Origin: a virus
IMG/VR virus record: IMGVR_UViG_3300025736_000127
Span: 1-29,574 of that record
Length of the DNA: 29,574 nucleotides
Strand: one strand, 5' to 3'
Shown here piece by piece: positions 20,391 through 28,532 of the stretch. Positions within the stretch are counted from its first letter, which is position 1. Every line of letters starts with the position of its first letter. The position numbers were made by a program, and so were the translations under genes. The notes below the pieces were generated by a model that had not been told where the DNA came from, made no database searches, and saw only the letters and a list, made by a program, of their open reading frames with translations.

Positions 20391-21506
20391 CTAGATTCCG
20401 TAAGGTACCCACAGCTCGACAGGCGCTTCGTCAAGATCAAGCCCATCAGCAGGATCAAAGAATCCCGTCCATGTTGTCTTGAGCAGCGTCTCGTTGATGC
20501 GTTCTCCAGGAATCTCAATCGTGTCTGGCTCGCTCAACGGATTCTTGATGATGAACACGACTGGATACGTCTGATCTGGATCTGATACTTCACACAGGAG
20601 AGCGATGTTCGTGAAGTGATCCGCTGCTGCAATCTGGCCAGGAGTGATAATGGTGAACGTATCGCCGCTCGCCGTATTGTCGTATACGTAGAACACCGTG
20701 ATCTTGTCGCCATCGAGGACAGCGCCGCCAGCCGTTGCGAGTACAACCTGATAGACCATCGTCGCATGAGCACTTGCGGTGATCACGTTCTTCGTACCTG
20801 TAGTTGATCTGCTAAGAGACACAACGCCAAGCGCCGATGTCGCAGTCACGCCAGGAACGCCATACGTACCATCGTTGATACATATTGCAAGCTCCACAGC
20901 GTCGGCAGTGTCGTCTCCAGAGATGTCAAACTCTCTGTCAGCAACGGTAGTTGTATCTGTATCCGCCGTGAATGTCAGTCCTTCGATAACAATAGTATCA
21001 AGATTGGCCATTGACGCGATCGTGATCTGATCAACCACGTTATAATCCGTGGCAAGCGTCAGCTCTACACCAATACCAAGCGCAGCTGGTGTACGCCACA
21101 CCTCAAGCGTGCTTTCGTCAATGCTCGGCGTCCCAGCAGGTGCTACACCAACATCCACTTCCGTCCCGACGCCGATGTACTCGCCCTTAATCCCTGTAGG
21201 CGTCTGATCTGCGCTATCTGCGCCAGGCAGATCCCACAGGTAATGGTTGACCGAATGCTCCAATAGGCTTACCGCAAGCGTCGGTACGATCTTGTCAATC
21301 ATCCGATGTCCAACGATCAAGCCCATCGCTCCGTCCGGTTCTACGTCATGGAATGTCAGACCATAGCTGAAACTTGACCCGCCCTTCGTCTCTCCAAGAG
21401 CGGTCCCAGGAGACGCAATCGACGTGAAGTCCTTGTATAGCGTTCCTCCACCCCTTAGATACTTGTTTACCGCTGCCGCTGTGATACCCGTCCGAATCGT
21501 TCCCAT
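20391..21506 (-). CDS. Major tail protein with inserted beta-domain
   Basis: 371 residues, starting MGTIRTGITAAAVNKYL after a GGGGTGATTTAG leader. The N-terminal and C-terminal parts (SFSYGLTFHDVEPDG, VDKIVPTLAVSLLEH-like region, and at the end IPGERINETLLKTTWTGFFDP with VELWVPYG) fit siphovirus tail tube proteins by pattern and position. Residues about 160-252 form a separate small beta-domain (IVIEGLTFTADTDTTTVADREFD, ELAICINDGTYGVPGVTA) that recurs in two head-side proteins of this window. The outer strands on either side (VELTLATDYNVV and YQVVLA...GDKITVFYVYD) appear to be one Ig-like domain interrupted by it. It would project from the tail surface. Tube identity rests mainly on gene order. 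Confidence 0.75.
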   Translation of the reverse strand: MGTIRTGITAAAVNKYLRGGGTLYKDFTSIASPGTALGETKGGSSFSYGLTFHDVEPDGAMGLIVGHRMIDKIVPTLAVSLLEHSVNHYLWDLPGADSADQTPTGIKGEYIGVGTEVDVGVAPAGTPSIDESTLEVWRTPAALGIGVELTLATDYNVVDQITIASMANLDTIVIEGLTFTADTDTTTVADREFDISGDDTADAVELAICINDGTYGVPGVTATSALGVVSLSRSTTGTKNVITASAHATMVYQVVLATAGGAVLDGDKITVFYVYDNTASGDTFTIITPGQIAAADHFTNIALLCEVSDPDQTYPVVFIIKNPLSEPDTIEIPGERINETLLKTTWTGFFDPADGLDLDEAPVELWVPYGI

Positions 21507-21511
21507 CTAAA

Positions 21512-21943
21512 TCACCCCACTGTATTTGTTATGTCTCTTGCTGCCCCGATCCACAGGTTCCACTGCGTCGCGTAGTGCCACACATTAGCTGCATCAGTTT
21601 CAATGTAGCCACCTGAAAACCATTCCAACAATATGTTCGCCTCGTCAGAGCCCGTATCTGTCCCTAGTTCGTGTAGAAGGATCTTCACTCGGTCAATTGC
21701 CGAATCAGGCACAGCCGAATCGACACCGTAATACCATAGGTCTAGGTAGTAGGTATGCACGCCATGTAGCAGATTCCCGTTCATCGAGAGCTTCTGCCAG
21801 AAGTAAGGCATCGTAGGATCAGCCGGTCCCATCACGCGATAGACATTCACGGGATCGCCCAGCACACTTTTCAACGTGGCGTCTGTAGTGAGCCGTGTCC
21901 ATAGATAGGCGATGATCGCCTGTCCTGTCTCGACCTCTGCCAC
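21512..21943 (-). CDS. Tail terminator / completion protein
   Basis: 143 residues. GTG 21943 is the chosen start because it overlaps the upstream stop (TAGTG) and follows AGGTGG by five bases; another GTG nine bases upstream is possible. The sequence has an N-terminal helix (GQAIIAYLWTRLTTDATLKSVLG), then VYRVMGPADPTMPYFWQKL, then strand pairs (HTYYLDLWYYGVDS) and a helix SAIDRVKILLHEL, matching the layout of small tail-terminator proteins (DUF3168 / SPP1 gp17 type). It lies between the gp10-like protein and the major tail protein as usual. It would cap the tail tube and join it to the head. Confidence 0.7.
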   Translation of the reverse strand: MAEVETGQAIIAYLWTRLTTDATLKSVLGDPVNVYRVMGPADPTMPYFWQKLSMNGNLLHGVHTYYLDLWYYGVDSAVPDSAIDRVKILLHELGTDTGSDEANILLEWFSGGYIETDAANVWHYATQWNLWIGAARDITNTVG

Positions 21944-22341
21944 TAGAACCACCTCTTGTTGAGTTCAAGCAGCATCCTCGGCTTTGCCTGATCAAGAGAT
22001 CGCTTGAGCCACGGACGACCGCCTTTATTCGCAGGCTTCTTCTCAAGCGGCGCTGCATATTTGCTGTTCGATCCAACCTGTACTTCTCCTCCGACTACTT
22101 TGCGCTGTACACTTCCTCTCAATTCTCCGAACCTCTCGTGAGACGGGAACTGACCGGGAGCGGACGCCGTGTAATAACGGTTCGTCTTTGGAACCTTGTA
22201 TACGTGCCCAGTTCTAGGGCCACCCGCAGCAGTAAGATTCTTCACTGTCTGATTCCTTCCGACATCAGCGGTTGCAATCAGCGCCTTCTCAGAAGCGACT
22301 TTAATCGCGGCAACAGCGGCAGGCATATAGGAAACGAACAT
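21943..22341 (-). CDS. HK97 gp10-like neck protein
   Basis: 132 residues from ATG 22341, one base after the preceding stop; a GTG at 22350 closer to the AGGTGG sequence would add three residues. The protein begins with a helix (PAAVAAIKVASEKALIATADV), followed by a basic loop rich in Gly, Pro and Tyr (PRTGHVYKVPKTNRYYTASAPGQFPSHERFGELRGSV), a strand (VQVGSNSKYAAPLE) and the ending GGRPWLKRSLDQAK. The GxY-xxAxxxxPG-PxxxxG-L+ pattern and the Y-A-xxxE ... RPF/WL segment are characteristic of the HK97 gp10 family of head-tail joining proteins. Position in the neck cluster agrees. Confidence 0.8.
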   Translation of the reverse strand: MFVSYMPAAVAAIKVASEKALIATADVGRNQTVKNLTAAGGPRTGHVYKVPKTNRYYTASAPGQFPSHERFGELRGSVQRKVVGGEVQVGSNSKYAAPLEKKPANKGGRPWLKRSLDQAKPRMLLELNKRWF

Positions 22342-22342
22342 C

Positions 22343-22708
22343 TTAGACACTGGCCACCTTCTTCTCTCTGTCCTCTTCAACGAGCACCGTCGTAATGATT
22401 CCTTCACCGTCAGCGTTCACCGGACTAGACTTCGGCCAGTAGATCTTCAGGTAGTCATCGCTCCCATTCGTGAACCAGACGAACCGCGTACCGCCTAGCG
22501 TGATCGTCGGCTTATCGTAGAATCGAAACTCCTTGCGCACGACTGCATCAAGTTCGATGTCATATCGCTGAACCGCCATCGCAGGGCTGATCGAAGACAC
22601 TTCACACCAACGAGTATCAGATGAAGCAGTCACCCACGCACCAAGCGGAGAGGTCGCTGTCGATGTCCGTGTGCCTGTATCAATCCTTACCCTCTGATTC
22701 GCGTTCAT
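22343..22708 (-). CDS. Head closure (head-tail stopper) protein
   Basis: 121 residues starting at ATG 22708, in an ATGA overlap with the connector gene. It is beta-rich: RVRIDTGTRTSTATSPLGAWV, WCEVSSISPAMAVQRYDIELDAVVRKEFRFY, ITLGGTRFVWFTNGSDDYLKIYW. This follows the head-tail joining / head closure family layout (SPP1 gp16, lambda FII type), with a W..V centre and a final small barrel. It would seal the connector after DNA packaging and bind the tail terminator. The family call is from pattern and gene order. Confidence 0.7.
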   Translation of the reverse strand: MNANQRVRIDTGTRTSTATSPLGAWVTASSDTRWCEVSSISPAMAVQRYDIELDAVVRKEFRFYDKPTITLGGTRFVWFTNGSDDYLKIYWPKSSPVNADGEGIITTVLVEEDREKKVASV

Positions 22709-23394
22709 CCTAGCCCCGGACTCAATCGCAGATGGCTAATGACGTCATACGTGTCTGCCATTCCCGACTCCTCAGACTTCATCGACACGTACATCGACTG
22801 TCCAATTCCCGCCGGTGAATCCATCATCAACGCAGAACGGTTTCTGAAGTGCCGCCGCACTCGCTGGTAGAGCCACTGATTCACGTCTTCAGGTATCGTC
22901 TGTGATGTGAGCACATCACGGGTAAGAAGCGTGTCTTCGTCCGAGCTAGTTACCACGATGTCATCAGCGTAGCCATAGTCGGCTTTGAGCGTAACCGAGC
23001 CGCTAGTATTGGCCGCTGTCACTCCCTCGACTCCAGTGGCCCCGTAAGAGCCTCCTAGTGACGTTGAGTTGACATAGGCCGCGAAGTTGTCAGCGGTATC
23101 CGAGTCAGTAGTACCGAGTGCAAACTCAAGTTCATCCTCATCAGCCGTCGCCTTGCAGGTGTACGTCTTGCCGTTGACAACGATGTAGTCGTCTGCAACT
23201 ACGCCGTCGAATACAACAGTCGGCACGATCTCAGTAAATGGGTTGTTCAGGTATTCGTCTGCCTTGCGCTTCGAGGCGTTGAACAGCACCGTAAGCAAGG
23301 CATCGTGATCTGATCCGTCCACGCCGCAATAGGCACGCACAAGCTCTGTGTAAGTTGCCCACGCTAGACCTGTATACACTGGACCGTCTGCCAT
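22705..23394 (-). CDS. Head-tail connector with inserted beta-domain
   Basis: 229 residues, ATG 23394 with AGGAGA upstream. Residues 10-50 (YTELVRAYCGVDGSDHDALLTVLFNASKRKADEYLNNPF) and 167-229 (VNQWLYQRVRRHFRNRS ... ) look like the helical gp6-type connector adaptor. Between them, at about 58-162, sits a beta-domain (YIVVNGKTYTCKATADEDELEF, DTADNFAAYVNS, SGSVTLKADYG) that does not belong to the family core and resembles inserted domains in the major tail protein and the 270-residue protein. The protein would form the ring under the portal. The insert would face outwards. Typical members are near 100 residues, so the extra length is explained by the insert. Confidence 0.72.
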   Translation of the reverse strand: MADGPVYTGLAWATYTELVRAYCGVDGSDHDALLTVLFNASKRKADEYLNNPFTEIVPTVVFDGVVADDYIVVNGKTYTCKATADEDELEFALGTTDSDTADNFAAYVNSTSLGGSYGATGVEGVTAANTSGSVTLKADYGYADDIVVTSSDEDTLLTRDVLTSQTIPEDVNQWLYQRVRRHFRNRSALMMDSPAGIGQSMYVSMKSEESGMADTYDVISHLRLSPGLG

Positions 23395-23403
23395 CGCTGT
23401 CTC

Positions 23404-23502
23404 CTATTTCTTTGGGAACCCGATTGGCCCTGCACCCTTGCCAGTGCCTAGACCTTTTCCCTTACCGCCTGACTTGATCCCGCTTCCTGGACATTTCGCC
23501 AT
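23404..23502 (-). CDS. 32-residue Gly/Lys-rich peptide
   Basis: A short frame from ATG 23502 to TAG 23404 preceded by GGGAGG five bases upstream, which overlaps the end of the preceding gene. The peptide begins MAKCPGSGIKSGGKGKGLG and ends GPIGFPKK, with many Gly and Lys residues. It fits exactly in the gap between the 80-residue gene and the connector gene. Very short Gly/Lys-rich genes occur at this place in other siphoviruses in my recollection, but the function is unknown. The strong ribosome binding site and the neat fit are the evidence. Confidence 0.6.
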   Translation of the reverse strand: MAKCPGSGIKSGGKGKGLGTGKGAGPIGFPKK

Positions 23503-23504
23503 CT

Positions 23505-23747
23505 CTACCTCCCGAATACCTTATGACCTGAGAAGCGTCGAGCACCACTTGTCGTAACCGTAGTGGCAATTTGTATGACCTCTGCGCCACCTTCCATTAC
23601 ACCACGGTTCTCAGGCTCTTCGATCATGCGGTTCGCAACGCCTTCAGAAATCAGCCGCTCGCCGTATTCCTTGTTGACGATCACTTCATCCCCTGGCTCG
23701 TAGTCTTTCGTCTTGATCGTCTGTGCTTCCGTCAATGTGATCTTCAT
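23505..23747 (-). CDS. Small unknown protein in head module
   Basis: 80 residues, ATG 23747 preceded by GGGGGTGAGGA. The first 45 residues (ITLTEAQTIKTKDYEPGDEVIVNKEYGERLISEGVANRM) form a short strand-turn-helix unit with a YxPGDEV..V...YGE+LI..G.A pattern that is common in small phage proteins encoded between capsid and connector genes. The C-terminus is VTTSGARRFSGHKVFGR, basic and probably unstructured. No signal or membrane segment. A small virion or head-assembly factor is likely from position. Confidence 0.6.
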   Translation of the reverse strand: MKITLTEAQTIKTKDYEPGDEVIVNKEYGERLISEGVANRMIEEPENRGVMEGGAEVIQIATTVTTSGARRFSGHKVFGR

Positions 23748-23768
23748 TCCTCACCCCCAAGGGAGAAG

Positions 23769-23792
23769 GGCAGGGAGCCGAAACCCCCTGCC
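23769..23792 (-). other. Intergenic hairpin
   Basis: A perfect 7 bp inverted repeat (GGCAGGG / CCCTGCC) with a 10-base loop lies in the gap after the 459-residue gene. No T-run follows on the minus strand, so it is not a standard terminator. It may protect or process the transcript. Confidence 0.4.
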
Positions 23793-23800
23793 GTAAGTTG

Positions 23801-25180
23801 CTATAAAGCGCCCGGTGCACCCATCGTCCACTCGATGTAGACCGTGGCCGCGCCTGCTGTACCGTTGTTGTTCTGATCTGCAACAGAGACAAGGATGTCT
23901 CTGGCAGTACCGCCTACACTTAGTCCGAAGTTTGAATACACGTCGGCATAAGCCCATCCGTCTGCTGCCTTGATATCAAGATCGCTCGCAAATCCCTCAA
24001 GCGTGCCTGACCATCCGATGTCACATGTCAGCGTACCACTCTCGTTAAACGCGGTAGTCGTCATAACCTTGACTTCAGTTACATACGCATTGGCCGGAAT
24101 CGTGAAGACCGTAACAGCAGATGCCGTCTGCGTGTAGACGATGTTGTAGGCACTGATGTACATTGCGCCTGAGTTAGTCGCATTGGCCACAATCACGTTC
24201 GCTTGATGAGTAGTGATTCCTTGGACGTTCAACGTATCGTCGATGTCAGTGACATCCAAGTTCGTGATGCCATCGACATCAAGATCCGTCCCAACGTTGA
24301 CTCTCTTAGCAACTCCAAGTCCACCGTCAGTATGGATTGATCCAGTAATCGTAGTCGTTGAATCAGTCACGTCGTCGATAGATAGAATCCCTGATCCGGT
24401 GATCGCATCAAGCGTGATACTGCCAACAAAGTCAAACGAGGCAGCCGTCCATGTGACCGCCGTGCCGCTACCAGCCATCGTAATAGCCAAAGCGCCGGTC
24501 GTGTCGGTTGTAGTGAACGTTGTTGCTGCGCCAACGTCAAATCCCACCATAAAGATCGGCGTGTAGTTGATCACGGACGTAGAACACGTAAACAGGCCAG
24601 TCGTACCAGCCACATCCAACGTGCCGTCAATATCCGTGTCGTCTAAATTAGCCGTCCCGTCTACTGCCAGATCGGTTCCGACCCATGCTTTCTTGGCGAC
24701 ACCAAGGCCGCCATCTGTATGGATTGAACCAGTGACCGCGCTCGACGTGTCGGTCACATCATCAACCGATATGATTCCAGAGGCCGTGACAGCGTCAAGA
24801 TCAATAGCCCCAACGAAGTCAAAGCCACCACTAGCCGTCCACACCACTGCCGGAGCATTCCCCGTGTGAGTGATTGTCGTGATGCCGCTAATCGCCGTGG
24901 TCGCAATCGACATGTAGATCGTCGTGCTAACGCCGATACGATTCGCAGCCGCTTCAAGACTGGTGAATCCCGCGCTAATCAGCCGCGCAGAAGTGCTACC
25001 GTCTAATGCGACAAGCGTACCGTCTACGGTTAGATTGCCAACGACGCTGATCGCTCCGAACGTAGTTGTGCCTACGACCTCAACGTCGCCTCCGATATAC
25101 AGATCATCGAAGTAGTTCGTCTTTGCCATACACGTCACTCCAATGAGGAGGACGAGACTCAGTACAAGTGCTTTCTTCAT
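23801..25180 (-). CDS. Exported fibre-like repeat protein in head module
   Basis: 459 residues, ATG 25180 with GGAGGG four bases upstream. The N-terminus (MKKALVLSLVLLIGVTCMA) has all the marks of a Sec signal peptide. The body is beta-rich with repeats: a TGSIHTDGGLGVAK...VGTDL.VDG..NLD.TDID.TL.V.G unit occurs twice (near residues 150-195 and 280-325), a pattern known from phage fibre shafts and trimeric spikes. Two FDFVG(A/S)I.LDA(V/I)T units precede them. The last 115 residues (FTIPANAYVTEVKVMTTTAFNESG ... ATVYIEWTM) resemble the 138-residue protein encoded just upstream. It may be a head fibre or decoration. The signal peptide is very unusual for a virion protein. Confidence 0.68.
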   Translation of the reverse strand: MKKALVLSLVLLIGVTCMAKTNYFDDLYIGGDVEVVGTTTFGAISVVGNLTVDGTLVALDGSTSARLISAGFTSLEAAANRIGVSTTIYMSIATTAISGITTITHTGNAPAVVWTASGGFDFVGAIDLDAVTASGIISVDDVTDTSSAVTGSIHTDGGLGVAKKAWVGTDLAVDGTANLDDTDIDGTLDVAGTTGLFTCSTSVINYTPIFMVGFDVGAATTFTTTDTTGALAITMAGSGTAVTWTAASFDFVGSITLDAITGSGILSIDDVTDSTTTITGSIHTDGGLGVAKRVNVGTDLDVDGITNLDVTDIDDTLNVQGITTHQANVIVANATNSGAMYISAYNIVYTQTASAVTVFTIPANAYVTEVKVMTTTAFNESGTLTCDIGWSGTLEGFASDLDIKAADGWAYADVYSNFGLSVGGTARDILVSVADQNNNGTAGAATVYIEWTMGAPGAL

Positions 25181-25189
25181 GTCACCCTC

Positions 25190-25606
25190 CTAGAGTGCTC
25201 GCTTGTAATACACAGTTACACGAGCTTTGCCCGCTGTCGGCACAGTGCTCGTGTGTGTGAAGATTGCCGACACAATGACATCAGAGGTCGGCGTGTAGTC
25301 GATGATTGTGGTTTCCACCGTCTCGCTATCTGCGTTCGTCGGATGCCCGTCTGCGATGAAGTAGTTCGTGTCGGTAGGTATCCCAACGATCAGCGCGTTA
25401 TCCGCACCGGCGTCGAAAGCAGTCACAACCCACACACTACATCCAAGGAACGTCGCGCCTGCGGGGATGGTCCCAACTACTACCGTTCCCGTGCCACCTA
25501 CTACATCCGTGTATTCAATCAGCTCAGAGAGCTTGCCGTCACCCGGTGCCCACGCGCAGGGTTCGCCAGGATCTGCAATGTTATGAGGTTTCAATATATA
25601 ACCCAT
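25190..25606 (-). CDS. Beta-sandwich virion protein
   Basis: 138 residues starting MGYILKPHNIADPG after GGGGG. The region from about residue 35 is a beta-sandwich (GTGTVVVGTIPAGATFLGCSVWVVTAFDAGADNALIVG) ending in KARVTVYYKRAL. Such single-domain proteins are often encoded next to capsid genes and also appear as C-terminal heads of fibres. The C-terminal domain of the next protein (459 residues) shares the IPA.A......V.V.TAF pattern and a final VY strand, so the two are paralogous there. A capsid decoration role is plausible from position. Confidence 0.65.
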   Translation of the reverse strand: MGYILKPHNIADPGEPCAWAPGDGKLSELIEYTDVVGGTGTVVVGTIPAGATFLGCSVWVVTAFDAGADNALIVGIPTDTNYFIADGHPTNADSETVETTIIDYTPTSDVIVSAIFTHTSTVPTAGKARVTVYYKRAL

Positions 25607-25615
25607 GATTACCCC

Positions 25616-26428
25616 CTATGCCGCAGCCGAAGTGTCGGTAACAGATACTGCTTGACCAACAGGTCCGTACCCGGCCATTGCACGCTCTAGCGTCGCAACG
25701 GTAAATGTGGTCGCATCGACAGAGGTAAACGCAGCGCCGATGTGAGTGAAGTTGTTAGTCCTGTCAAGATCCTGTACGTACACCTCGAAGTCTGCCATCT
25801 GAATGAGATCCGTTACGATCAATCGGCCAACTGCTCCGGCCAATTCAGTGATGTCGAATGCTCCAGTACCGTTGTCAGCACAAAGCACGGTACGATCGCC
25901 GCCGCCTGGCTCGGTGCAAGTAAGCAGAACCGTACCAGCAGTAGCAACAGCCAACATCCCAGGCACACCGTAAGTCGCATCGTTGATACAGGCTGCCAAT
26001 GAAGCCCCAGTCGCCGTGTCGTCGTCGTCATAATCGAACTCACGATCTGGTAAGCTCTGAGCAGTAGCAGCCGTGAATGTCAACGCTGTGCCTGCTGTAA
26101 GAGTCCCTTCGCCGTTGAAGTAGTACGGCGTGATAATTACCGTATCGGAAGCTGTAACAGACGAGCAGACGACCTGCGCCATCGTTACCTTGCTGCCCTG
26201 AGTGAATGTAAGAGCAGCGCCAAGGGTCTTAGCGCCAGTACCAGTCGCATCGCTTGCTTGAGTAACAGTCAGTACGCAGGTTGCTCCTGTGAGCTGCCCA
26301 CGAACGATACCATGAAAGTTCGCCTTAGCGAATGTGTCCATGCGGAACCATTCACCCGTGAGGCCCGTGTTGTCGTAATCCGGCTTGATTGCGCAGTCAA
26401 ACTTTGTAGCTTCTCTAATCATGTGCAT
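25616..26428 (-). CDS. Virion protein with inserted beta-domain, next to capsid gene
   Basis: 270 residues, ATG 26428 with GAGGAG seven bases upstream. Residues 1-100 (KPDYDNTGLTGEWFRMDTFAKANFHGIVRGQLTGATCVLTVTQASDATGTGAKTL) resemble beta-rich proteins encoded directly after capsid genes. Residues about 105-200 hold the inserted domain (LTFTAATAQSLPDREFDYDDDD, SLAACINDATYGVPG) shared with the major tail protein. The C-terminal part (DFEVYVQDLDRTNNFTHIGAAFTSVD) returns to the first fold, so the domain looks inserted. A decoration or minor capsid role is inferred. A weak 4 bp GC hairpin in the gap before it is not a convincing terminator. Confidence 0.65.
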   Translation of the reverse strand: MHMIREATKFDCAIKPDYDNTGLTGEWFRMDTFAKANFHGIVRGQLTGATCVLTVTQASDATGTGAKTLGAALTFTQGSKVTMAQVVCSSVTASDTVIITPYYFNGEGTLTAGTALTFTAATAQSLPDREFDYDDDDTATGASLAACINDATYGVPGMLAVATAGTVLLTCTEPGGGDRTVLCADNGTGAFDITELAGAVGRLIVTDLIQMADFEVYVQDLDRTNNFTHIGAAFTSVDATTFTVATLERAMAGYGPVGQAVSVTDTSAAA

Positions 26429-26464: not shown

Positions 26465-27802
26465 CTATGCTACGTCAGTCAGTTGAATGAACGGGCTGAC
26501 AGTATTCGTACCATCTTGCAGCGTGAGTGCATTAGTGATCCACGGTTTGCCATCATCGTAGTACACCATACGCATCGTTTCCTTGCCTGACTTGAAGTTG
26601 GCATAGGTGTTGTCGCTCTTGAGCGCCGCACCCATTCCAGGTTTCCTCATGTAGTAGTCAAGGTTGACCAGTCGCATGTCGCCTTCAGTACCGAGCGTCG
26701 GGCTGATCTCATTGAAGAAGACCGGCACACCACCCAAAGTAGGAGCGGGGATTCCTTCGCGTGCGTTGGATGCCCACATCAACTGTCCTGCACCGTCAGT
26801 CATAAACATCAACTGAGGAAGCATCGTCACTTTCTGGCATATCCACACGAAGCGTCCGCCGCCGTTGGACATAGCTCGTGCCAACATGTACACCATATCG
26901 GCATACTGGAAACGGTCGGCTGTCTGTCGAGCGATGTCAATCATCGCAGGAGAGTCGGCAAAGCCCTTGAATTCACCGGCACCAGTTCCCGTCTGGATCT
27001 TGTCATCACGATATGCCATGACTGCACCGTTGACGAGCGGGAGCATCATTGATCCCATCTGAGGCGTATTCGCTTGGGCCTCTTCGGAGATGGTCCAGAA
27101 CACGCCCGTCTTCTCAGGCTTGAAGCTTACCGGAATGATTTTAGGAGTGTTCGTCTCAGATACATCCTCCAATTCCTTCGAGGAGTAGACAGCAACACCG
27201 CCATAGATTCCCTTCGATCCAGACTGGTCGAATGCGTTGAACGTAAACTCGGCATTCGGCGGGTCGGTCGCCGGAAGGTTGCGAATTAAGCTAGACAGCC
27301 ATTGCTGATCTGGCGGAATCTGTAGCAACTGATCGGAAAATTGCGGTCGCATCCAGAAGGCTCCGCCTGTCCCAGTAAGAGTATCGAACCCTCGCTCTTC
27401 CAGTCGGCGGCGTTCGATTTCGCCATTGTGCATCTTCAGTAGGCGCTCAGGCGTTCCCATGCCAGCAGCAGCGGCCCTGACCTCTTCAAACATAGCACCG
27501 ATGCTATCAGCCTCGTTGCCATAGCCGTAGTCTTCCTCGCGCTCTTCGGTCGCTACTATTCCAGGTGCTTGTAATGCCTGGGCAGCTTCCGTGTATCGTT
27601 TCTCGGCTGCGTCCAGCTTCTCTTCCATCTCTTCGTAGTGAGCCGTCGCGTCTCCGGTGATGTCCTTCACGCGCCGCTCGACTTCCTCTTTCACTGTCTC
27701 AGGAATGTCTCCAAGTGAATCGCCAATGCCCTTGATTTTGACATTCAGCTCTTCAAGTGTCCGTTGCTCATCGCTCATTTCAGTCTTAGTTTCATCCGCC
27801 AT
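26465..27802 (-). CDS. Major capsid protein, HK97 fold
   Basis: 445 residues from ATG 27802 (MADETKTE), with GAGGGG eight bases upstream and an 11-base overlap with the protease gene; a GTG nine bases upstream is less likely. Residues 1-90 are charged coiled coil (EEVERRVKDITGDATAHYEEMEEKLDAAEKRY), the delta/scaffold segment that the prohead protease removes; cleavage near residues 95-110 is likely. The rest has HK97-family features: SSLIRNLPATDPPNAEFTFN, FKPEKTGVFWTISEEAQANTPQ, NGAVMAYRDDKIQTGTGAGEFKGF, FVWICQKVTMLPQL, PAPTLGGVPVFFNEISPTLG, and a final strand PFIQLTDVA. It builds the icosahedral shell. Order protease-capsid is canonical. Confidence 0.92.
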   Translation of the reverse strand: MADETKTEMSDEQRTLEELNVKIKGIGDSLGDIPETVKEEVERRVKDITGDATAHYEEMEEKLDAAEKRYTEAAQALQAPGIVATEEREEDYGYGNEADSIGAMFEEVRAAAAGMGTPERLLKMHNGEIERRRLEERGFDTLTGTGGAFWMRPQFSDQLLQIPPDQQWLSSLIRNLPATDPPNAEFTFNAFDQSGSKGIYGGVAVYSSKELEDVSETNTPKIIPVSFKPEKTGVFWTISEEAQANTPQMGSMMLPLVNGAVMAYRDDKIQTGTGAGEFKGFADSPAMIDIARQTADRFQYADMVYMLARAMSNGGGRFVWICQKVTMLPQLMFMTDGAGQLMWASNAREGIPAPTLGGVPVFFNEISPTLGTEGDMRLVNLDYYMRKPGMGAALKSDNTYANFKSGKETMRMVYYDDGKPWITNALTLQDGTNTVSPFIQLTDVA

Positions 27803-28532
27803 CTCGATCACCCCTCATGGTTTTCTTGATTACGCCTTGGAGCCAGAGCACCGAGTCCTGAAGCGTCCGGGTGTCTAATGACGGGCCTTCTGCTTTCACG
27901 AGTGTTGCCGTAGTTCCTATGTCTTCTCCCGCAGGCAGTGAAACGTTATACGTTTCAAGTACCGTGCGAAGCTTTGCTACTTCCTCAATGAATCTATCCT
28001 CGTTGCCAGTCTTGAGTGCGGTATTAAGACGCCGCATGTGTTCAGTTGCTGCACGCACCTGCTCGACGCCAGCCTCAGGGTTTGCGCCGAAGTTCATCGT
28101 CACAATTGCCAACTCCGACAGAATGACTTCCTTCTTATGAGCTACGCCGTCTTTGTCGTCAGTCTCACGGACAGTACGGAATCCGTGGCTCATGTCGCTG
28201 TAGTAGCCACTCGCAGGGTTGCCATCGTGAGCCAGCCCCATGTAGACGGTGTTCGCACGAGGAGTCTCTATATTCAGATACCCTTCCTCGATCAGCAATC
28301 CTGTGGCGTCTTCCTTAACACCACGTGCCATGCCGATAGGATCCCACCATTCATGATTGACAGTCAGAGGGAATGCTCCTTTGTGAGCCTTGATCGTTCG
28401 CTTGAAACACCCAGCGTCAAAGATCGTCCCATAGCTATCAACGTTTCCGAATATCGAAGCATGGCCGGTGAACATGCCATCGCCGTCAATCTCCCTCACT
28501 TCTAGCGGATATGTTCGTGTCTCAGTGAACAT
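27792..28532 (-). CDS. HK97-type prohead protease
   Basis: 246 residues from ATG 28532 (MFTETRTYP), with GGAGGG six bases upstream; the longer frame has no such site. Domain residues 10-155 match the U35 family of capsid maturation proteases: GMFTGHASIFGNVDSYGTIFDAGCF at the start, then H60 in VNHEWWDPIGM, S115 in DMSHGF, and E140 in ILSELAIVTMNFGANPEA, which fit the His/Ser/acidic catalytic set by position. The usual motif is SFGF; here it is SHGF. Residues 165-246 are a helical C-terminal extension that may act as an internal scaffold. It processes the capsid protein encoded next to it. Confidence 0.88.
   Translation of the reverse strand: MFTETRTYPLEVREIDGDGMFTGHASIFGNVDSYGTIFDAGCFKRTIKAHKGAFPLTVNHEWWDPIGMARGVKEDATGLLIEEGYLNIETPRANTVYMGLAHDGNPASGYYSDMSHGFRTVRETDDKDGVAHKKEVILSELAIVTMNFGANPEAGVEQVRAATEHMRRLNTALKTGNEDRFIEEVAKLRTVLETYNVSLPAGEDIGTTATLVKAEGPSLDTRTLQDSVLWLQGVIKKTMRGDRDGG

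Follow-up and report, generated by a model that had tools for sequence, protein, structure and literature searches.

Does a single phage place the same domain in proteins of its head, neck and tail, and if so, what kind of module is it? The question is raised by IMGVR_UViG_3300025736_000127 (29.6 kb), the record of an uncultured phage, whose whole length of 29,574 nucleotides is called the window here and whose virion genes lie on the minus strand. An earlier note, made from the sequence alone, had proposed that one small domain is inserted into the major tail protein (MTP), the gp6-like head-tail connector and a protein of 270 residues (p270), which is encoded directly after the major capsid gene and is probably a capsid-associated (decoration) protein. 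We found homologous inserts of 85–110 residues (~90 amino acids, aa) in all three proteins (Table 1). We read them, with a probability of about 0.77, as copies of a self-contained and promiscuous domain, accessory to the virion proteins of tailed phages, that is moved by recombination and likely serves as a surface module.

Homology of the three inserts

The sequence motifs by which the three copies had been recognised were all found where the earlier note had placed them, and reciprocal profile searches bore out its view of one domain in three virion proteins. The MTP and p270 inserts share ~53% identity over their core, with an alignment score of 148 against a shuffle maximum of 67, and an equally good score was reached in 0 of 1000 shuffles. 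The connector insert was marginal in pairwise alignment (1–3 of 1000 shuffles as good), and it was therefore tested with profiles from which the connector copies had been left out. A hidden Markov model (HMM) of all non-connector copies found the window connector at E=7.2e-13, the MTP-only HMM found it at E=8.5e-11 and the p270-only HMM at E=6.9e-9. In the reverse search, the connector-only HMM recovered the window MTP (E=1.5e-6) and the window p270 (E=1.4e-6). A fourth copy was sought among the remaining open reading frames (ORFs) of the window and none was found.

Low-complexity beta-strands rich in T, A, D and G could in principle come to look alike by chance or convergence, without any common domain, and both the weak pairwise scores of the connector insert and the biased composition reflected in the HMM bias scores point that way. 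Against this stand the reciprocal profile E-values, which go down to 1e-13, the identical order of strands and helix in the structure models of MTP and p270, and the controls, in which 5547 reversed and 5547 shuffled ORFs gave zero domain matches up to E=10. Chance similarity of the three window copies is ruled out by the profile E-values and the clean controls, so that we give this explanation almost no weight. On these profile comparisons we firmly regard the three inserts, connector copy included, as homologous.

Interruption of the host proteins

That the insert interrupts its host fold held for all three proteins, except that the tube fold of the MTP is not interrupted directly. There the insert is nested in a first-order peripheral module (residues ~107–156 and 259–288), which is itself set into the tube protein. 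An HMM of this module matches insert-less MTPs in one continuous stretch, but the window MTP in two pieces. The insert-less homologues of the related loci L071, L072, L073 and L074 (~280 aa) are continuous across the insertion point between TDYTV and NESTGVVT, and the MTP of L034 is likewise continuous. Read from these alignments, the MTP insert is a module within a module. By fold, the MTP model matches major tail proteins in BFVD; the Foldseek search with this weak model also matches RcTitan gp13 and supports the identity as a tail protein only.

In its intact form the connector matches PF05135 over residues 19–55, which cover the first half of the profile only. Once the insert is removed, the match becomes continuous, from residues 19–89 to profile positions 7–82 (E=1.7e-6), and covers both halves of the fold; a search with an alignment of such insert-free connectors finds HK97 gp6 (3jvo) weakly (E=0.74). 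This insert also has a 7-residue extension (GGSYGAT region). In p270, a homologue in L008 carries an unrelated insert at the identical site, and the best BFVD structural matches are phage proteins of 120–160 residues covering the host fold, whose length implies that these homologues are without the insert.

The peripheral module of the MTP (window 20643–21188) is reminiscent of a motif common in phages (LEVW followed by TDYTV, TGTITF and VTVxYxYD), and a similar stretch was noticed by eye at another point of a connector (L128:1997–2923). From this likeness, the one to L128 judged by eye, the module resembles a second promiscuous module, in which the shared domain is nested in the MTP. A tail protein homologue of Parageobacillus phage JGon-2020a (L075:5971–6819) is without the peripheral module and has instead, by eye, a chitobiase-like repeat domain at its C-terminus.

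Gain, loss and exchange of the domain

Four MTP lineages of the window's clade (L071, L072, L073/L074 and L034) are without the insert. On the L073/L074 contigs, the nearest of these, the MTP has lost or never gained it, yet the connector, 91% identical to that of the window, and p270, 72% identical, both contain it. The insert is thus not a conserved core of the MTP in all relatives, and the same is true of the connector and p270 families at large, yet for these two proteins it was present in every close relative found.

The MTP of L006 illustrates exchange at an occupied site. Its identity to the window MTP is 94% over residues 1–97 and 97% over residues 286–371, with 43–54% between them. 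At the DNA level, blastn gives 86–90% on both flanks, the alignment ending at window position 20664 and restarting at 21096, with zero alignment over 20665–21095. The L006 insert falls in another clade of the insert tree (support 100/89) than the window type (100/99), and judging by flanks and tree it is a copy from another lineage set between window-like flanks. A transfer from the phage's own p270 gene was considered and is unsupported; the insert clusters with that of the L027 MTP and with one from L045.

Connectors also differ in where they carry the domain. In L085 it lies in another connector type at a different site, near the N-terminus. An accessory N-terminal connector domain holds a copy in L124 and none in L146, and the two DNA sequences share 76% identity as far as the junction. 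Empty sites, swapped copies, many unrelated hosts and independent insertion sites agree with the mobility that had been suspected, and these sequence comparisons support it well.

Other carriers and several copies per phage

Beyond the three window proteins, the domain occurs in an unrelated 653-aa tail protein of L008, in a second type of tail-located protein (L120 and L123, assigned by position and length only), in nozzle proteins (L104, with PF25675 at E=8e-143, L125 and L129), in a capsid protein (L147, phrog_267) and in the tail fibre of L139. Further capsid-protein carriers are probably L106, L138, L142, L145 and L148. Single proteins of L045, L105 and L122 contain two or three copies. 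The domain is therefore found in several unrelated virion proteins and is present or absent among close homologues, as befits a promiscuous virion accessory domain.

In a domain scan of 47 loci of 4.6–12 kb each, at least two domain-bearing proteins were found in 11, the window clade being one of these and L124 having four; the loci had been collected by a pattern scan less sensitive than the HMM, so that this is a plain count and not an excess over a base rate. In L124, three clustered p270-type genes follow the capsid gene (L124:4873-7710), each with its own diverged insert copy. In L008, the connector (L008:5265-6182) and the tail protein (L008:7062-9023) have in common a second, unrelated domain (56% identity over 55 aa, E=2e-8), the shared domain of the window being in the tail protein only. 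It may be general for a phage to share inserts among its virion proteins.

Searches for cultured phages with window-type or consensus sequences found none, and a distant member alone found Rhodobacter phages. Distant versions of the domain are present in the tail tube protein of RcOceanus, a cultured Rhodobacter capsulatus phage, and in nine relatives. In RcTitan, another cultured phage of this host, the domain is present in gp13, close to the capsid gene, and twice in gp17, which sits at the expected place of the tail tube gene; Foldseek of the MTP model matches a 189-aa RcTitan protein. The RcTitan HMM scores contain a large composition bias, and the assignment is made partly by fold match.

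Fold and family assignment

Structures were predicted with AlphaFold2 (AF2). The p270 model is good, with a predicted local distance difference test (pLDDT) value of 88.5 and a predicted template modelling score (pTM) of 0.85, and the MTP model is weak (pLDDT 60.5, pTM 0.42). In both models the elements of the insert follow one order: two strands lead to a short strand (REF), then comes one helix, and two strands close the domain. The helix spans residues 137–149 in p270 and 200–214 in MTP (13–15 residues, between strands). What had been called a small beta-domain is instead a mixed beta-alpha-beta domain in both models, laid out as a beta-hairpin with [I/V]xINGxTFTA, the strand REF, the helix DTADAxxLAxCIN and a second beta-hairpin.

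Profile searches of the insert copies against Pfam, PHROG, NCBIfam and PDB gave no named family above threshold, and the family appears to be unnamed in these libraries. Pfam scans of 13 and 25 copies yielded no match to immunoglobulin (Ig)-like, Big or FN3 models (Big_1, Big_2, I-set, FN3), and on the two models the insert would not be an all-beta sandwich of the Ig-like kind, owing to the helix. The Pfam family matched most often, below threshold, was Flagellin_IN (PF07196), with 3 of 25 copies (best E=0.069) and one member at E=0.042 in the 13-copy scan; the member with the best E-value reached 13.8 bits against a curated cut-off of 22.7 bits, and the window record gave no match to this family. 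CBM_5_12 was matched below threshold in two divergent carrier proteins only (E=0.016 and 0.073). No ligand-binding family was matched among the insert copies in the profile searches, and neither a conserved active-site pattern nor a recognised ligand was found. PDB profile matches such as filamin-C or a GABA-B receptor entry were short and judged to be chance, and Foldseek of p270 against the PDB returned nothing below E=0.001, with template modelling scores below 0.2.

Evolution, selection and possible roles

In the insert tree of the window clade, the connector copies form one clade (99/97), the window-type MTP copies another (100/99) and the p270 copies a third (100/97). From these host-specific clades it follows that each copy was inserted before the window clade diversified and then evolved mostly in place. 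Gene conversion among the copies of one genome was rejected for this clade, since the copies group by host protein. The ratio of non-synonymous to synonymous substitution rates (dN/dS) is ~0.05–0.3 for inserts and host parts alike, which indicates that all insert copies tested are under purifying selection; by the same measure no diversifying selection was seen in them. The MTP insert evolves about twice as fast as its host protein, with 65–76% identity among window-type relatives against 82–96% for the rest of the MTP. The connector insert is at least as conserved as its host (91–93% versus 81–89% among near relatives).

Under the accessory-domain reading, recombination would place the domain into loops of unrelated virion proteins, where it would form a separate lobe off the host fold and then evolve in place. 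Because of the locations of the host proteins and the precedents of Ig-like domains and YSD1 domain2, these lobes would lie on the outside of head, neck and tail alike, and a position at the particle surface is likely. The most likely job would be that of a passive surface module, repeated many times per particle, which may make weak multivalent contacts to the cell envelope or surroundings, of the type suggested for Ig-like domains and carbohydrate-binding modules, or else to neighbouring subunits; binding of a ligand is speculative. Several points weigh against this reading. The predicted insert fold is not clearly like any solved structure, the MTP model is poor, and the models cover MTP and p270 only. 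Moreover, the relatives of the window connector and p270 that were found all keep the insert, which limits the signs of dispensability to the MTP, and the conservation of the connector insert fits structural contact better than free decoration.

The insert might therefore mainly provide lateral subunit contacts in rings or shell, like YSD1 domain2, its reuse reflecting easy insertion and not a shared ligand. Its host proteins form rings or lattices, all three copies are under purifying selection, most strongly among near relatives of the connector, whose insert has changed less than the ring core, and YSD1 domain2 offers the example of an inserted beta-sandwich with a large inter-subunit interface (PMC8718954). 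However, no other part of the MTP changes as fast as the insert in window-type relatives, and the insert is missing in near relatives with alike neck and head proteins; from this absence and fast change we conclude that the MTP insert is not required for the tube, and a mainly stabilising role, though possible, is doubtful. That all copies bind one host or environmental ligand (glycan, mucus or particle), so that head, neck and tail would all take part in multivalent capture, strikes us as unlikely. Several copies per phage are recurrent, 936 phages have carbohydrate-binding modules at neck and tail that bind host cells (PMC6669499), and the motif CINDATYGVPG is conserved across unrelated host proteins in this subfamily, but this motif seems to belong to the fold core; connector copies have it in altered form, and distant copies have lost it. 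The unmatched ligand-binding families, the lack of visible diversifying selection and the grouping of copies by host protein instead of by phage within the window clade also speak against such a coat.

Somewhat less likely again is that a small, easily folded domain was dropped by recombination into permissive loops and persists without a function of its own. The broad range of host proteins and sites would suit this, as would the gain, loss and swap seen in the MTP; dN/dS of ~0.05–0.3 in all copies tested argues otherwise, although folding alone could yield part of that signal, and every connector of the clade retains the insert. We consider it improbable that several tailed-phage lineages carry one domain on head, neck and tail because the copies share one partner, be it each other, a soluble virion-coating molecule or a host ligand. 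If that were true, the particle would be coated via inserts in its structural proteins and not by a dedicated decoration protein.

Features of the window

Table 1 Insert copies, their host proteins and the capsid gene in the window.
Feature	Position	Strand	Basis
MTP, 371 aa	20391..21506	-	Tube fold with peripheral module and nested insert; phrog_885 major tail protein, E=4.9e-16
MTP peripheral module, second half, residues ~259-288	20643..20732	-	Module HMM
Shared insert domain, MTP residues ~157-258	20733..21038	-	HMM matches; absent in L071-L074 and L034
MTP peripheral module, first half, residues ~107-156	21039..21188	-	Module HMM, two separated matches in window MTP
gp6-like head-tail connector, 229 aa	22705..23394	-	PF05135, E=3.7e-4, first half only; E=1.7e-6 over both halves minus insert
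Shared insert domain, connector residues ~56-163	22906..23229	-	HMM of non-connector copies, E=7.2e-13
p270, 270 residues, directly after major capsid gene	25616..26428	-	Gene order; AF2 model; BFVD homologues of 120-160 aa
Shared insert domain, p270 residues ~95-201	25826..26146	-	Pairwise alignment, profile HMMs, AF2 model
HK97-type major capsid protein, without insert (context)	26465..27811	-	PF05065, E=6e-15

Two further proteins lie nearby. Among the head genes, a 459-aa protein (window 23801-25180) has an N-terminal signal-like stretch, MKKALVLSLVLLIGVTCMA, and two near-repeats, VDDVTDTSSAVTGSIHTDGGLGVAKK; its best match is a weak one to a PHROG of unknown function (E=8.5e-4). A 138-aa protein (window 25190-25606) adjoins p270, matches phrog_2694 (unknown function, E=3e-5) and is without the insert.

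Significance and comparison with known systems

An apparently unnamed, non-Ig family would join the short list of modules plugged into phage structural proteins. Filled, empty and swapped sites resolved at residue level are material for studying the origin of insertions, and the sites in connector, tail tube and decoration proteins mark loops that can accommodate 90 extra residues, which is useful for display. Why the same module should be on head, neck and tail of one particle is a testable question, for which the cultured Rhodobacter capsulatus phages with distant versions provide a laboratory system.

Promiscuous domains on phage virion proteins are an already known kind. The Ig-like domains of tailed phages are promiscuous, surface-exposed accessory domains (Fraser et al. 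2006, summarised in PMC9022992). Like the insert, they occur in several classes of virion protein, including tail tube and capsid, and are dispensable for the tube in some phages (PMC9022992). The insert differs from them in sequence and fold, with strands and a central helix, and is internal in the window proteins, whereas Ig-like domains are C-terminal or frameshifted extensions; unlike them, it is also found in connectors and nozzles, and in several proteins per phage. The 936 lactococcal phages bear add-on carbohydrate-binding modules on the neck passage structure, the major tail protein and Dit (PMC6669499). Those modules bind host cells and come in mostly exclusive combinations, all three being present in 1 of 113 phages (PMC6669499), whereas the insert, known here from sequence and models, is in three proteins in most members of its clade. 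Domain2 of the YSD1 major tail protein is, like the MTP insert, set within a tail tube fold (PMC8718954); it is a beta-sandwich packed onto the neighbouring subunit, and the likeness that we draw is one of placement and not of homology. The hook-associated Flagellin_IN is a short motif with a conserved 'IN' like that of the insert, but at 55 positions it is shorter, and its match lies below the cut-off. The available part of a general survey reports ongoing domain exchange in phage virion proteins, neck proteins included (PMC10684548), and that part holds no description of this domain that we could find; nor did we find in the open-access literature a description of such multi-protein use with a nested copy. 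What appears to be new is the family itself, together with its use by one phage in head-associated, neck and tail proteins alike through homologous copies, one of them nested in another module.

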